Shown here: piece by piece, positions 23,556 through 28,546 of the stretch
Numbering within the stretch: the stretch's first letter is position 1
Layout of the letters: each line of letters opens with the position of its first letter
Assembly: GCA_019233975.1 (NCBI GenBank)
Contig: JAFALY010000023.1
Coordinates: 1 to 62,683, forward strand
Length of the DNA: 62,683 nt
Source: Alphaproteobacteria bacterium
GTDB lineage: Bacteria; Pseudomonadota; Alphaproteobacteria; UBA9219
Direction of reading: 5' to 3'
Made by a program: the position numbers and the translations under genes
Notes under the pieces: model-generated
The model's input: the letters and a program-made list of their open reading frames with translations, nothing else
Database searches by the model: none
Told to the model about the DNA's origin: nothing

Positions 23556-24101
23556 ATGAAACTCAAACCCCCTGAACTCCTCTACCTGCCCCGCATTGGC
23601 CTGCTGTTGCTGCTCGCGTCCGCCGCCAGCCTGACCTTCGCCTTCATCCTGCAATTCGTCTATGGCGTGGCGCCCTGTATCCTGTGCCTGGCGCAACGCG
23701 TCCCCTTCGCCTTTGGCACCATTCTGGCCGCAACATTGGTGGCAGCGCGCCCTTTCGGCAAGCACAGTACGGCGCTTTTGCTGGTCATTGCGTTCGTCTA
23801 TCTGGTCAACACCGGCATCGCAATTTTCCACACCGGCGTTGAACAGCATTGGTGGATGGGTACGGCGAGCTGCTCAACACAACCGCTCGCTGGCGACAAC
23901 GCCGATGATCTACGCGAAGCTTTGCTCAACACAACGCTAGCCCGCTGTGATGAAATCAGTTGGACCTTCCTCGGTTTCTCTATGGCTAACTGGAACATCC
24001 TGCTGTCCGGCGCACTGGCCGTTTTCGCAGGCCTTGGCGCACAACGTCAGCACGACCAGAGCAAAGGCATCTGGCACGCGCTGATGAGCCTGTTTTCATA
24101 A
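23556..24101 (+). CDS. dsbB: Disulfide bond formation protein B
   Basis: Inner-membrane quinone reductase (181 aa) that reoxidises DsbA. Four membrane helices. The first periplasmic loop carries the CxxC pair APCILCLAQR and the second loop carries the other pair (TASCSTQPLAG and LARCDEISW). The latter loop is longer than in E. coli DsbB, as is common in alphaproteobacteria. No dsbA is in the window. Its 3' end overlaps the convergent znuB by 6 bp. Confidence 0.93.
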   Translation: MKLKPPELLYLPRIGLLLLLASAASLTFAFILQFVYGVAPCILCLAQRVPFAFGTILAATLVAARPFGKHSTALLLVIAFVYLVNTGIAIFHTGVEQHWWMGTASCSTQPLAGDNADDLREALLNTTLARCDEISWTFLGFSMANWNILLSGALAVFAGLGAQRQHDQSKGIWHALMSLFS

Positions 24102-24968
24102 CGGTTTGCGGATAGCCGACAGGCAGCTGCCGTGCTTGCCAACCAGAACAGACCCCAGACACAATGTCCCGCACAGCAAAACCACAACCGGCCCTGAGGG
24201 CGTGTTGGTAAAGTAGGACAGCAGCAACCCCGCATAAGATGAAAAGATCGCAAGGCCCAGCGCGAATCCAATCGCGCGGTCCACCTGACGCACCCAGAAT
24301 TGGGCCGCAATGGACGGCAACAGGATAAGCCCCAACGCCATGAGCGTACCGAGCGCCTGAAACGCCGCCACCAGATTAATGACAAACAACACGAAAAAGG
24401 CCGGACGCACCAAACGTATAATCGGACGTTTGGACGCCGCCGCCATCAGAAAATCAGGATCAAAGCAGTCCAGCACCAACCCGCGATAAATAAATGCCAG
24501 CACAAAGAGTGTCAGAACCGCGACGATACCGATGAACAAGAGCGCGTCATTATCGATCGCCAAAATGTCACCGAACAGCATATGCAAAAGGTCGATATTA
24601 CTGCCTTTCAGCGACAAAAGAACAATCCCGCTGGTCAGGGACAGGAGGAACAGCAGCGTAAACACGCCATCCTCCTTGATTTGCGTATAGCGGCTTAGAA
24701 ACACCGACAACAGCGCGATCAGAATACCGGCGGTTAGCCCGCCCGCCGTCATCGACCAGACGCTGAGTCCGGAGACCAGAAAAGCCACAGCCACGCCCGG
24801 GAAAATGGCATGAGACATGGCATCCGATACCAAAGCCATACGCCGCTGGTTCATAAAGAACCCCAACGGCGCGCCGCTGATGGCCAATACGATGCAGGCC
24901 AGCAACGCACGGCGCATAAAGCCATAATCCAGATAGGGCGACAGCAGATAATGCGTAACAATGTTCAT
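24096..24968 (-). CDS. znuB: Zinc/manganese ABC transporter permease
   Basis: 290 aa, ABC-3 family permease with about eight membrane segments. Family marks are RRALLACIVLAISGAPLGFF, RMALVSDAMSHAIFPGVAVA, the SNIDLLHMLFGDILAI loop and LVAAFQALGTLMALGLILLP. It pairs with the ATPase upstream (4-bp ATGA overlap) and with the divergent binding protein. Zinc is favoured over manganese because Zur-type operators lie in the shared promoter region. Its stop overlaps the end of convergent dsbB. Confidence 0.9.
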   Translation of the reverse strand: MNIVTHYLLSPYLDYGFMRRALLACIVLAISGAPLGFFMNQRRMALVSDAMSHAIFPGVAVAFLVSGLSVWSMTAGGLTAGILIALLSVFLSRYTQIKEDGVFTLLFLLSLTSGIVLLSLKGSNIDLLHMLFGDILAIDNDALLFIGIVAVLTLFVLAFIYRGLVLDCFDPDFLMAAASKRPIIRLVRPAFFVLFVINLVAAFQALGTLMALGLILLPSIAAQFWVRQVDRAIGFALGLAIFSSYAGLLLSYFTNTPSGPVVVLLCGTLCLGSVLVGKHGSCLSAIRKPL

Positions 24969-25771
24969 GCGTGATCCCCGGGGCCATGTTTGTGATGGCC
25001 ATGGTCGTGATTGTGTCCGTGATGGTCGCGGTGTGTCTGATGATGGAGCGGGTCCTCTGGTGGAACCAATTCGGCCATATCCAGATCAAACGACAAAAGT
25101 TTTTGTTCAAACATCTGATGTGTATGACCGCTGCCCAAGCATTTGCCCTGCAACACCATGGATTCAGGAAAATACTTTTTGATCAGCAGCAGATCATGCA
25201 AAACGCAAATGATCGTCCGCCCTTCCTCATGCCATTTCAGCAAAAGCTGGATCAGGCGCGCCGTGGTCGCCGCATCGACGGCAGAAAATGGCTCATCCAG
25301 CAAAATGACATTGGCATTCTGAACAATGACGCGGGCAAACAAGGTACGTTGCAATTCACCGCCGGACAGTGCGTTGATCTGCCGCTTTTCAAACCCGCCC
25401 AGCCCAACTTCACCCAAAGCCTTGCTGGCCGCCTGCTTCTGCGCTTTTGATAAGCCCCCTGCCTCACCCGCTTCCGGATAAAAACCGGTCAGCACAACAT
25501 CAAAGACTGATAATGGAAAGTCGCGCTGTAAATGTGCAACCTGCGGTAAATAGGCCATAGACGGGCGCACATTGTCGGCAAAGGCAATGGTTCCACGCGT
25601 GGGGTGCAAAACACCGGCGATGGCTTTCAGTAGCGTGCTTTTGCCGGAACCGTTCGGCCCCGCGACCGCTGTCAATGACCCGCACGCAAACTGCCCCGAA
25701 ACGCTTTGCAGGGCTACATGGCGACCATAAGAAACGAAAATGTCATTGAGCGTTATCAAAGGATGGGTCAT
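24965..25771 (-). CDS. znuC: Zinc ABC transporter ATP-binding protein
   Basis: 268 aa from ATG 25771, which has ggggacgg upstream. Walker A is GPNGSGKSTLLKAIAG, the Q-loop is MAYLPQVAHLQRDFP, the signature is LSGGELQRTLFARV, Walker B is VILLDEPFSAVD, and the H-loop is IICVLHDLL. The last 25 or so residues are histidine-rich (HHQTHRDHHGHNHDHGHHKH), suiting metal buffering or sensing. The start overlaps the stop of a 32-codon ORF. The frame continues upstream to 25801 without a better start. Confidence 0.93.
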   Translation of the reverse strand: MTHPLITLNDIFVSYGRHVALQSVSGQFACGSLTAVAGPNGSGKSTLLKAIAGVLHPTRGTIAFADNVRPSMAYLPQVAHLQRDFPLSVFDVVLTGFYPEAGEAGGLSKAQKQAASKALGEVGLGGFEKRQINALSGGELQRTLFARVIVQNANVILLDEPFSAVDAATTARLIQLLLKWHEEGRTIICVLHDLLLIKKYFPESMVLQGKCLGSGHTHQMFEQKLLSFDLDMAELVPPEDPLHHQTHRDHHGHNHDHGHHKHGPGDHA

Positions 25772-25866
25772 ACCGTCCCCGATAAAACAGCATATACGCA
25801 CAGGCCAACAAACGCACTAAGCGCCGCAGCCAAAGCCAGTCTTTGCATAAGTGACCAGTGATACAT
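25768..25866 (-). CDS. Candidate 32-aa single-helix membrane protein upstream of znuC
   Basis: ATG 25866 to TGA 25768 encodes 32 residues, mostly one hydrophobic helix (LALAAALSAFVGLCVYAVLS) after a short MYHWSLMQR start. Agagg lies about 6 nt before the ATG. Its TGA overlaps the znuC ATG (ATGA), the same coupling used by the other genes of this unit. It lies directly after the Zur-type operators, so it would be the first gene of the regulated transcript. I know no named family for it. It could be a small regulatory subunit of the transporter or a leader peptide. Confidence 0.55.
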   Translation of the reverse strand: MYHWSLMQRLALAAALSAFVGLCVYAVLSGTV

Positions 25867-25881
25867 CGCAACCTCTATAAA

Positions 25882-25896
25882 CGTTATAATATATCA
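25882..25896. promoter_or_regulatory. Second, imperfect Zur-box-like site
   Basis: cgttataatatatca matches the perfect palindrome at 25916-25930 in 12 of 15 positions, with one half-site altered. It lies nearer the small ORF/znuC side, 34 bp centre to centre from the better site. It may serve the minus-strand promoter or act cooperatively. Confidence 0.6.
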
Positions 25897-25915: not shown

Positions 25916-25930
25916 TGTTATAATATAACA
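25916..25930. promoter_or_regulatory. Zur-type operator (perfect palindrome)
   Basis: tgttataatataaca is a perfect 15-bp palindrome around a central A and matches the core of the known proteobacterial Zur box (TGTTATANTATAACA). It lies 32 bp before the znuA ATG and between the two halves of a divergent zinc-uptake locus, exactly where a zinc-responsive repressor should bind. Contains a TATAAT that may be part of a promoter. Confidence 0.88.
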
Positions 25931-25962: not shown

Positions 25963-26856
25963 ATGCGCTTTGTAAAAACAGTTTTGACCCTTGCCGCCAT
26001 TGCGCTCGCCCCCGTTACAGCCCATGCCACACCGCTTAAGGCGGTCGCCACAATCAGCATATTAGCGGATATAACGCATCAGGTAGGCGGTGATCTGGTC
26101 AACGTAACACCCATTGTCGGGCCCGATGGCGATGCGCACACCTATAAACCAACGCCGCAGGATGCCAAGGCGTTAGCCGAGGCGGATGTTATCATTACAA
26201 ATGGTTTGGGACTGGAAGGCTGGCTGTCGCGCCTGATCAAGGCCTCAGGCACCAAGGCGATAATCGCGGTCGCCAGCACTGGTGTCACGCCACGGCAAAT
26301 GGTCGACGACGGCAGAAAAATTACCGACCCGCATGCGTGGCAAAACGTTGCCAATGCCAGAATCTATGCCCACAACATTGCGTCCGCACTGACCAAGGCG
26401 CTGCCTGACCAAACGACCGTTATTCAACAGCAAGCAGCTGCTTATGACGCACAATTGGCGGATCTGGATAGTTGGGTCAATGGACAGCTTGCTGACATAC
26501 CTGCCGCGCAGCGCAAGATTATCACCAGCCACGACGCGTTCGGTTATTACGGCGCCGCTTACAACGTAACGCTGCAGGCCCCACAAGGCATGAGTACGGA
26601 AGGCGAGCCCACTGCTGCGCAGGTGGCCAAACTGATAACACAGATGAAGTCCGAGAAAATTCACCGCGTCTTTTTTGAAAACATGGCCAGTCCCAAGGTT
26701 GTGCAGCGCATAGCCGAAGAAGCAAACGCAAAAGTTGGCGACGCCGTATATTCGGACGCGCTGTCCAAGGCCGACGGCCCGGCCGCAACCTATACGAACA
26801 TGATTCGTCACAACACAACCCTGTTCCGCGAAGCCATGCTGATGAACGGGAAATAA
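25963..26856 (+). CDS. znuA: Periplasmic zinc-binding protein of the Znu ABC transporter
   Basis: 297 aa cluster A-I metal-binding lipocalin-like binding protein with a cleavable signal (VLTLAAIALAPVTAHA). Predicted metal ligands are His59 (GDAHTYKP), His124 (DPHAWQ), His190 (TSHDAFGYYG) and Asp265 (YSDALSKADGPA). It lacks the long His-rich loop seen in many ZnuA proteins, so by sequence alone manganese is not excluded; the operator favours zinc. Gaggataa lies before ATG 25963. Divergent from znuCB and followed after 47 bp by DUF1007. Confidence 0.92.
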   Translation: MRFVKTVLTLAAIALAPVTAHATPLKAVATISILADITHQVGGDLVNVTPIVGPDGDAHTYKPTPQDAKALAEADVIITNGLGLEGWLSRLIKASGTKAIIAVASTGVTPRQMVDDGRKITDPHAWQNVANARIYAHNIASALTKALPDQTTVIQQQAAAYDAQLADLDSWVNGQLADIPAAQRKIITSHDAFGYYGAAYNVTLQAPQGMSTEGEPTAAQVAKLITQMKSEKIHRVFFENMASPKVVQRIAEEANAKVGDAVYSDALSKADGPAATYTNMIRHNTTLFREAMLMNGK

Positions 26857-26903: not shown

Positions 26904-27638
26904 ATGCGGATTCACTTACCCCTGCTTGCCAGCTTGCTCTGCGTCCTGCCGTTTACGGCATCGGCGCACCCGCATGCATGGATTTCTGTGCGGACAACCG
27001 TCATTCTGAACGATAAGAACGAAGCGATCGCCATTCGCGAACATTGGCTGTTCGACAAAATGTACAGCGCCTTTGCCGCCCGCGACCTGAACCCCAAGGG
27101 TGACGGCAAGTTTAAGAATGATGAGCTCATCCCCCTGGCGCAGCAAAACCTGGAAAACCTGTCGGCGTTTCATTACTTCACGGTGTTTGAGAAAGAACCG
27201 CAGCATCCCATCACGCTGGGCAAGCCAGAAAATATCGCCAGCATGTTCGAAGACGCCCCCGCGACTGAGAAAAAGAAAGTCGTCGTCTACGCAACACCCA
27301 ACGGTGCCAGTGCGGATGATGTTCCGCCGGACGCCAAGCAAATCGCTATGGAGTTTACGTTGCCGCTGGCCGCACCGGTCAGCCTCGCCTCAGGCAAAGT
27401 AACTTATCGCATTTTTGACCCCACTTATTACGTGGATATGACGCATTATGAACAAGCGCCCGTCGCCTTTGCACGGCAGGGCAGCATGGACCCCATCACA
27501 TCCTGCAATGGCAAGGTTGAATTGCCCAAGATAGATAGCGCCATGATGTTGCGCGCCGCCGCGCTGGATAAAAGCGCCAAGGCGCAGGAAGATTACGGCT
27601 ACTACTTTTCGGAAAAAGTGACCCTGTCATGTTCATAG
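26904..27638 (+). CDS. DUF1007 family periplasmic protein
   Basis: 244 aa with a signal peptide (LPLLASLLCVLPFTASA) followed immediately by AHPHAWISVRTTVIL, the histidine-containing mature N-terminus of the DUF1007 (COG3683) family. Members are usually encoded beside NicO-type Ni/Co or other metal transporters, as here, and are thought to bind metal in the periplasm. Two cysteines near the C-terminus (ITSCNGK and VTLSCS) may pair. It may be co-transcribed with znuA or use its own promoter. The stop overlaps the NicO start by 10 bp. Confidence 0.85.
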   Translation: MRIHLPLLASLLCVLPFTASAHPHAWISVRTTVILNDKNEAIAIREHWLFDKMYSAFAARDLNPKGDGKFKNDELIPLAQQNLENLSAFHYFTVFEKEPQHPITLGKPENIASMFEDAPATEKKKVVVYATPNGASADDVPPDAKQIAMEFTLPLAAPVSLASGKVTYRIFDPTYYVDMTHYEQAPVAFARQGSMDPITSCNGKVELPKIDSAMMLRAAALDKSAKAQEDYGYYFSEKVTLSCS

Positions 27639-28546
27639 ACAATTTAGTTGTCACGCTCAGTCAGGCCCAACATTCCTTTAACGACAGCATTCTGTCGCAA
27701 CTGCAAAGCATACGCGACGCGCACAGTCTGATCGCCTATGCCGGGTTGATGGCCGTCGGTTTTGTGTACGGCATTTTACACGCGGTTGGCCCGGGGCATG
27801 GCAAGGTCGTGGTTTCCGGTTACATGCTGGCGAATGAAAACAGCCTGAAGCGTGGCATTGTGATTGTCGCATTGTCCTCGCTGATGCAGGCACTGACGGC
27901 GATTGTTCTGGTTGAATCTTTCTTTTTCATTTTGCATATGCCGCAGGCGCAGGCTGAACATTGGGCCGGGCTGCTGGAACTGGTTAGCTATGGCGGTATT
28001 GGCTGCATTGGCTTGTACCTTATGGTACAGGGGCTGTTGACGCTGCGCCCACGCAAGACACAGCATGCGCACGCCCATAACGAGCATAATCAGGCGCATG
28101 AACATGAACACCACCACCATCATGATCACGACGGGCATTGCTGTCATCACGCGCCGGTACCGACAGAAGGAAAGAACTATTCGCTGACGGCCATTGCGGG
28201 CATGATTGTGTCGATCGGTATTCGCCCCTGCACAGGTTCGCTGTTGCTGTTATATTTCGCCTGTTTGTTCGGGTTGGGGTTTGCGGGCGCGCTTGCGACA
28301 CTCGCCATGGGCGTCGGCACGGCGATCACAACCGGATCACTAGCGATCTTGGCGGTTAAATCGCGTTCGCTCGCCATGAAATTCGTCAATAAATCCGACC
28401 GCGCTCTGACGCTCGCACACGGTTTTCTGCGTCTGGCGGGCGGCGGCTTCATTTTGTTGCTGAGCGTCCTGTTCGCCCTGCCGCACCTGCAAGACACCGC
28501 CCCACCGGCGGTTGAGCAACACCCGTTGTTTAAATCAATCCAATAA
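27629..28546 (+). CDS. NicO/RcnA-like nickel-cobalt family metal transporter
   Basis: 305 aa, six-helix NicO superfamily protein (COG2215). The motif ILHAVGPGHGKVVVSGY in helix II is the family metal site. A cytoplasmic histidine-rich stretch (about residues 145-172, HEHEHHHHHDHDGHCCHH) separates the two halves. IGIRPCTGSLLLLYFACLFG follows. RcnA-type members export Ni/Co and other members import. Here it sits downstream of znuA with its DUF1007 partner, so zinc transport is possible. The substrate cannot be read from the sequence. Confidence 0.85.
   Translation: MFIDNLVVTLSQAQHSFNDSILSQLQSIRDAHSLIAYAGLMAVGFVYGILHAVGPGHGKVVVSGYMLANENSLKRGIVIVALSSLMQALTAIVLVESFFFILHMPQAQAEHWAGLLELVSYGGIGCIGLYLMVQGLLTLRPRKTQHAHAHNEHNQAHEHEHHHHHDHDGHCCHHAPVPTEGKNYSLTAIAGMIVSIGIRPCTGSLLLLYFACLFGLGFAGALATLAMGVGTAITTGSLAILAVKSRSLAMKFVNKSDRALTLAHGFLRLAGGGFILLLSVLFALPHLQDTAPPAVEQHPLFKSIQ

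Follow-up and report, generated by a model that had tools for sequence, protein, structure and literature searches.

The window analyzed here, a stretch of 62,683 nucleotides (contig JAFALY010000023.1 of the alphaproteobacterial assembly GCA_019233975.1), contains on its minus strand an ORF of 32 codons followed by TGA (25768..25866, read from 25866 to 25768) that encodes a small membrane protein, MYHWSLMQRLALAAALSAFVGLCVYAVLSGTV, as judged from the reading of the ORF, its homologues, a profile and a helix model. The Shine-Dalgarno motif that the first-pass annotation had noted is AGAGG (25872..25876, minus strand), 5 nt ahead of the ATG. The TGA and the start codon of the next gene (ATG, 25771-25769) overlap to form ATGA (25768..25771, minus strand), an arrangement suggestive of translational coupling; the same 4-nt overlap is present in 45 of 116 homologous loci. 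The next two genes, which encode an ATPase and a permease, share an ATGA-type overlap as well (24968/24965), so that the small gene is indeed coupled in the same manner as the genes around it. A start at Met7 is rejected because homologues from the same order begin at the position of Met1 (mostly with M-F) and because the Shine-Dalgarno motif suits Met1. An RNA element in place of a protein is rejected as well, the only two Rfam matches being at chance level, far below the gathering score and within the ATPase gene.

The genes downstream of the small ORF encode an ABC ATPase (24965..25771, minus strand) and an ABC-3 permease (24096..24968, minus strand), and a divergent gene encodes a substrate-binding protein (25963..26856, plus strand). 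The nearest NCBIfam models are AztA, AztB and AztC, with scores of 204, 224 and 268 bits against cut-offs of 220, 280 and 350, respectively; all three scores are below the cut-off, that of the ATPase just so. The match of the ATPase to the ZnuC model yields 92 bits (cut-off 306). The ZniC proteins of Enterobacteriaceae behave in the same way as the window ATPase, with 199 of the 220 bits required by AztA. Because of the near-cut-off AztA score and the low ZnuC score, the ATPase is denoted AztA/ZniC type here; thus, the overlap previously reported between the small ORF and "znuC" stands but the gene name does not. The binding-protein gene is followed (26904-28546, plus strand) by one gene for a putative periplasmic protein resembling DUF1007 and one for a permease of the nickel/cobalt type that contains a His-rich loop; beside aztA in a Paracoccus locus (L202), there is likewise a DUF1007 gene, with a membrane protein gene next to it.

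The divergent promoter region contains a Zur-like palindrome, GTTATATTATAAC (25917..25929, an exact match, 51 nt upstream of the small gene), and a second Zur-like box with one mismatch, GATATATTATAAC (25883..25895), identified by motif search. The window as a whole includes 5 matches to this motif (both strands counted) versus 0.47 expected, and no further Zur-like boxes beyond these two are found in the part of the window near the small gene. Beyond the boxes, the binding-protein gene is oriented away from them, on the plus strand. Given this arrangement, the minus-strand transcript behind the Zur-like boxes begins with the small gene, in agreement with the first-pass annotation.

Conservation and genomic context of the small gene

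The ATPase is found in 31 of the 33 genomes of the order, and a small ORF of about 28-38 codons ends near the ATPase start in 25 of the 32 loci (e.g., MFHFSAIQRLALATTVSLALIALVALVVR, MFNFSLMKRLLVAAAVSILLVVLVYQVMG and MFYMSLAQRLALAALLAGCAVLLALWALS), a count in which three members (L077, L078 and L080) are assigned more by position and hydrophobicity than by the profile. Because homologues occupy the same place in most relatives, the small ORF is a real gene and not a chance reading frame. The window protein matches the profile in a search of its own genome with an E-value of 1.8e-10, being itself the first row of that profile. A six-frame search of 385 genomes of the class with the first profile yields 16 matches, 12 of which are outside the order, and 7 of these 12 are located directly upstream of an independently found ATPase gene. 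Among the 12,517 ORFs of 139 loci, the iterated profile has 94 significant matches, of which 93 are just upstream of the ATPase gene; the only one that is not is a displaced copy (L173, genome G047), where the small ORF is retained about 1.1 kb upstream of the ATPase with a gene for an EamA-type transporter in between. Altogether, the small ORF is present in 92 of the 105 class loci, including this displaced copy and one about 140 nt upstream of the ATPase (L162). A second profile, built from 77 sequences, matches ORFs in 65 of 398 genomes of the phylum Pseudomonadota, 38 of them outside the class, and inspection of 28 matches, those with the highest scores, shows the ATPase gene immediately downstream in every case. 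The inspection of relatives for the same ORF upstream of the ATPase, proposed by the first-pass annotation, thus finds it conserved at the level of order, class and phylum alike, the opposite of the non-conservation named there as a refutation.

Loci of the class that are nearly identical to records from Bradyrhizobium and Methylobacterium suggest that this class is Alphaproteobacteria. Homologues can be traced to well-known organisms. In Enterobacteriaceae, the zni locus, with the small gene within it, is located between mltB and pncC. The report on Klebsiella zniCBA places the genes at the same mltB/pncC site, where the authors infer an insertion (PMC10797113). In a K. pneumoniae record, a small ORF, MFTSIFMASGAVRAAIAGVLLAALWLATWWAVTLP, follows a Zur-like box and overlaps the start of zniC but is absent from the gene table; in one of K. 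aerogenes, the protein is annotated as "Uncharacterised protein" (VDZ62730.1). The ORF before the AztA-like ATPase in a record of N. gonorrhoeae, a locus taken to be znuCBA/mntABC, reads MTPSLLLSGLTFRLFLALIAVFLLWGVYLWAVSV. Records of Skermanella, Thioclava and Comamonas list the small protein as "hypothetical protein". In the available parts of their descriptions, both zniCBA and znuCBA/mntABC are named as three genes, with the small one omitted (PMC10797113, PMC12183173, PMC9280163). For R. leguminosarum, the published account places a Zur box 153 bp before zniC, a distance that leaves room for the small gene. No zni locus was found in E. coli at megablast sensitivity.

A Zur-like box (at most 2 mismatches, within 250 nt upstream) precedes the small ORF in 62 of 115 homologues, compared with 6 expected from shuffles, at a median distance of about 30 nt. 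The remaining small ORFs may have other forms of the box or a promoter further up, e.g., where a gene of the Fur family precedes. In eight loci (L054, L055, L057, L061, L072, L073, L074 and L076), the divergent binding-protein gene is replaced upstream by a Fur-family gene, probably zur, which has the same orientation as the small gene and immediately precedes it; the small ORF is kept in these loci as well.

On a tree of the ATPases from 162 loci, the small gene is present in 137 and absent from 25 (136 and 26 before the L162 copy was re-counted), and presence and absence change 7 times versus 24.5 with shuffled labels. The loci without it comprise a clade of lower-identity ATPases, interpreted as ZnuC proper; four AztABCD-type loci (L202, L204, L205 and L207) nested among carriers; a five-member subclade of the same family; and a few more, including the singletons L053 and L071, which are close to the ATPase of the window itself. 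These scattered absences indicate that the small gene can be dispensed with and that its loss occurred on more than one occasion. In genomes with a locus that lacks the gene, a convincing homologue elsewhere is found only in G275 (same locus, further upstream), G047 (the displaced copy) and G318 (its other locus). AztD is encoded nearby in three of the four AztABCD-type loci without the small gene, as if it were a replacement. The five relatives of the subclade (L066-L070) possess a second ATPase subtype (42-45% identity); in most of them, a Zur-like box immediately precedes the ATPase start, and the upstream neighbor, on the opposite strand, encodes a membrane protein.

The window protein combines a predicted single helix, an N-side invariant arginine and a gene directly upstream of an AztA/ZniC-type ATPase, the features of the entire family. 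Its relatives, each with a single membrane helix, occupy the first gene position in a large group of bacterial zinc importers, among them the importers of Klebsiella, Bradyrhizobium and Neisseria.

Sequence constraint and predicted topology

The window protein contains one hydrophobic segment, and its AlphaFold2 model is a single helix spanning residues 3-29 (mean pLDDT 87), compatible with the single membrane helix proposed earlier. Selection at the protein level is apparent: dN/dS is below 1 in all close pairs compared, mostly 0.1-0.5. Common descent makes some of these pairs non-independent, but the outcome is the same in each of about twenty disjoint pairs. In 22 aligned sequences of the order, Arg9 and Ala13, at the start of the helix, do not vary. 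Across the larger set, the arginine is present in all 143 sequences, an invariance that is partly built in because the profile itself served to collect the loci, apart from a few chosen by eye; alanine reaches 90%, and two tryptophan columns, which the window protein lacks, are conserved at 80% and 87%. Lysine and arginine residues average 1.29 on the N-side of the helix versus 0.12 on the C-side, and positive charges are N-side in 107 loci and C-side in 2, so that the N-terminus is predicted to face inside. The conserved positions do not significantly cluster on one face of the helix (p 0.28).

A subset of the loci includes His-rich ends, either at the N-terminus of the small protein (14 of 116 loci) or in the tail of the ATPase (20 loci); by the predicted topology, both are cytoplasmic. 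The two never occur together, versus 2.4 loci expected under independence in a count that treats loci without correction for relatedness, and 82 of the 116 loci have neither. In the window, the His-rich tail HHQTHRDHHGHNHDHGHHKHGPGDHA is at the C-terminus of the ATPase (24968-25045), and the likely metal ligands of the small protein are limited to one His and one Cys. Further cases of His-rich ends are seen at L032, L107, L130, L102 and L079. No fusion of the helix to the ATPase is seen in loci that lack the small gene, nor any fusion to the permease, where the comparison is crude, with frames picked by a short motif, and is given no weight.

Possible functions of the small protein

The predicted features of the small protein are best compatible with an accessory subunit of the AztA/ZniC-type permease complex that contributes to its assembly, stability or activity. 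This function, which we consider probable, is to be expected of the product of a coupled first gene that is fixed beside one type of transporter, is present within its transferred locus and is subject to protein-level selection. The copy kept in L173 despite the intervening gene points in the same direction. Under zinc starvation, repression by Zur would be lifted and the small protein would be made first, in step with the ATPase and the permease owing to the overlapping start and stop codons. Its single helix would then cross the inner membrane with the N-terminus on the inner side, which would place the conserved arginine at the cytoplasmic face of the membrane and, in most members, the tryptophans at the periplasmic end. 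The helix would most likely pack against the permease and affect transport, helping the complex to assemble, remain stable or reach full activity. KdpF, CydX and AcrZ are known analogues that aid their partner complexes in this fashion. Against a subunit function, relatives of these importers (the AztABCD loci, true ZnuC, the five-member subclade, L053 and L071) work without the small gene, and neither fusions to the ATPase or the permease nor a significantly conserved helix face are seen.

A more specific version of the subunit hypothesis is a zinc-responsive gate, whereby the small protein would sense cytoplasmic zinc and throttle import by trans-inhibition, via its own His-rich N-terminus where present or via the His-rich tail of the ATPase; being a special case, it shares part of the confidence assigned to the subunit. 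The never coinciding His-rich ends, both cytoplasmic by prediction, are suggestive, and trans-inhibition is known for MetNI and ModABC (PMC10710835). However, the majority of the loci have neither end, the exclusivity is weak and takes no account of the kinship of the loci, and the window protein has few likely ligands, so that gating appears unlikely. The same degree of doubt applies to the general form of this proposal, namely that in a large group of Zur-controlled zinc ABC importers throughout Pseudomonadota, import would be gated by a fourth membrane subunit in response to cytoplasmic zinc, with the His-rich sensor located on the subunit or on the ATPase tail.

Alternatively, the ORF could be a leader cistron, the translation of which anchors ribosomes and mRNA at the membrane or, through coupling, determines how fast the ATPase is translated, with no later role for the peptide. 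A peptide that is little beyond a helix and precedes the ATPase gene, often with the ATGA overlap, is what such a leader would look like. This is nevertheless rather improbable: the invariant arginine, the conserved tryptophans and the low dN/dS speak for the peptide itself, as do the 14 His-rich N-terminal extensions, and the small gene is maintained where the EamA-type gene separates it from the ATPase or where as much as about 140 nt separate its stop from the aligned start of the ATPase.

We assign a low probability also to a starvation-induced modulator of a different membrane protein, e.g., a zinc exporter, that merely shares the importer promoter. The upstream Zur-like box is compatible with such a role, and MntS and MgtS act in this way, inhibiting or stabilizing another transporter (PMC10710835). 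However, a modulator of another protein has no reason to stay beside the importer, and the near-perfect synteny with one ATPase group across many families, together with the presence of the small gene in the transferred zniCBA locus, counts against it. Finally, short ORFs are common in the window sequence, but a spurious ORF has next to no probability in the face of same-place homologues, profile matches and dN/dS, that is, all the conservation evidence.

If the small protein is an accessory subunit, three genes do not give the full composition of ZniCBA and ZnuCBA/MntABC, and complexes reconstituted or studied structurally without it may be inactive or unregulated. The family is mostly missed by annotation pipelines and may represent an overlooked fourth part of these zinc importers. 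It provides a testable handle on the assembly or shut-off of cluster A-I zinc importers, for which mutants exist.

Relationship to known transporters and small membrane proteins

A search of Pfam, NCBIfam and the PDB with the 77 family members detects no significant match, and no name or mention of the small protein was found in the open-licence papers searched, a scope that would miss reports in subscription journals; the earlier statement that the protein has no known name thus holds for these sources. Single-helix partners of transporters are a known kind; no description was found of this particular family or of its position in ABC-3 zinc importers. The transporter itself is of the same type as ZniCBA of Klebsiella pneumoniae and Rhizobium leguminosarum and ZnuCBA/MntABC of Neisseria, and the Klebsiella and Neisseria loci include a homologous small ORF that overlaps the ATPase start. 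AztABCD of Paracoccus denitrificans is the nearest curated family for all three transporter proteins of the window; in a Paracoccus sp. locus of the AztABCD type, AztD is present and the small gene absent.

One analogy is with KdpF, a tiny single-helix protein whose coupled gene opens the operon of a primary ion importer (kdpFABC). The small protein resembles it in size, in the predicted helix and in gene position, but Kdp is a P-type ATPase/channel complex, whereas the small family belongs to ABC-3 zinc importers, can carry His-rich extensions and has no sequence relationship to KdpF: the window protein matches no family, a single homologue of 77 hits the KdpF model (E 0.048, not significant), and the neighbors are an AztA-type ATPase and an ABC-3 permease, not kdpABC. 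FixQ/CcoQ and FixS/CcoS are single-helix proteins of similar size, but from oxidase operons. Their Pfam matches are weak (1 of 77 members with a best E of 0.004 and 3 of 77 with a best E of 0.044, not significant for 77 queries); the FixS match of L057 scores 14 bits against a gathering score of 23.1, and the window protein has none.

AcrZ, MgtS and MntS, which are not homologous to the window protein, are not known to be encoded as coupled first genes of the operons of their partners. These small membrane proteins, under about 50 aa, modulate transporters, and MntS and MgtS respond to metal status (PMC10710835). Another precedent is LucB, an overlooked small membrane subunit of the Mce1 ABC importer (PMC9882608). 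LucB differs from the small protein described here in that it has several helices, was found by cryo-EM and acts on lipid transport, but its case indicates that ABC importers can hide small parts.
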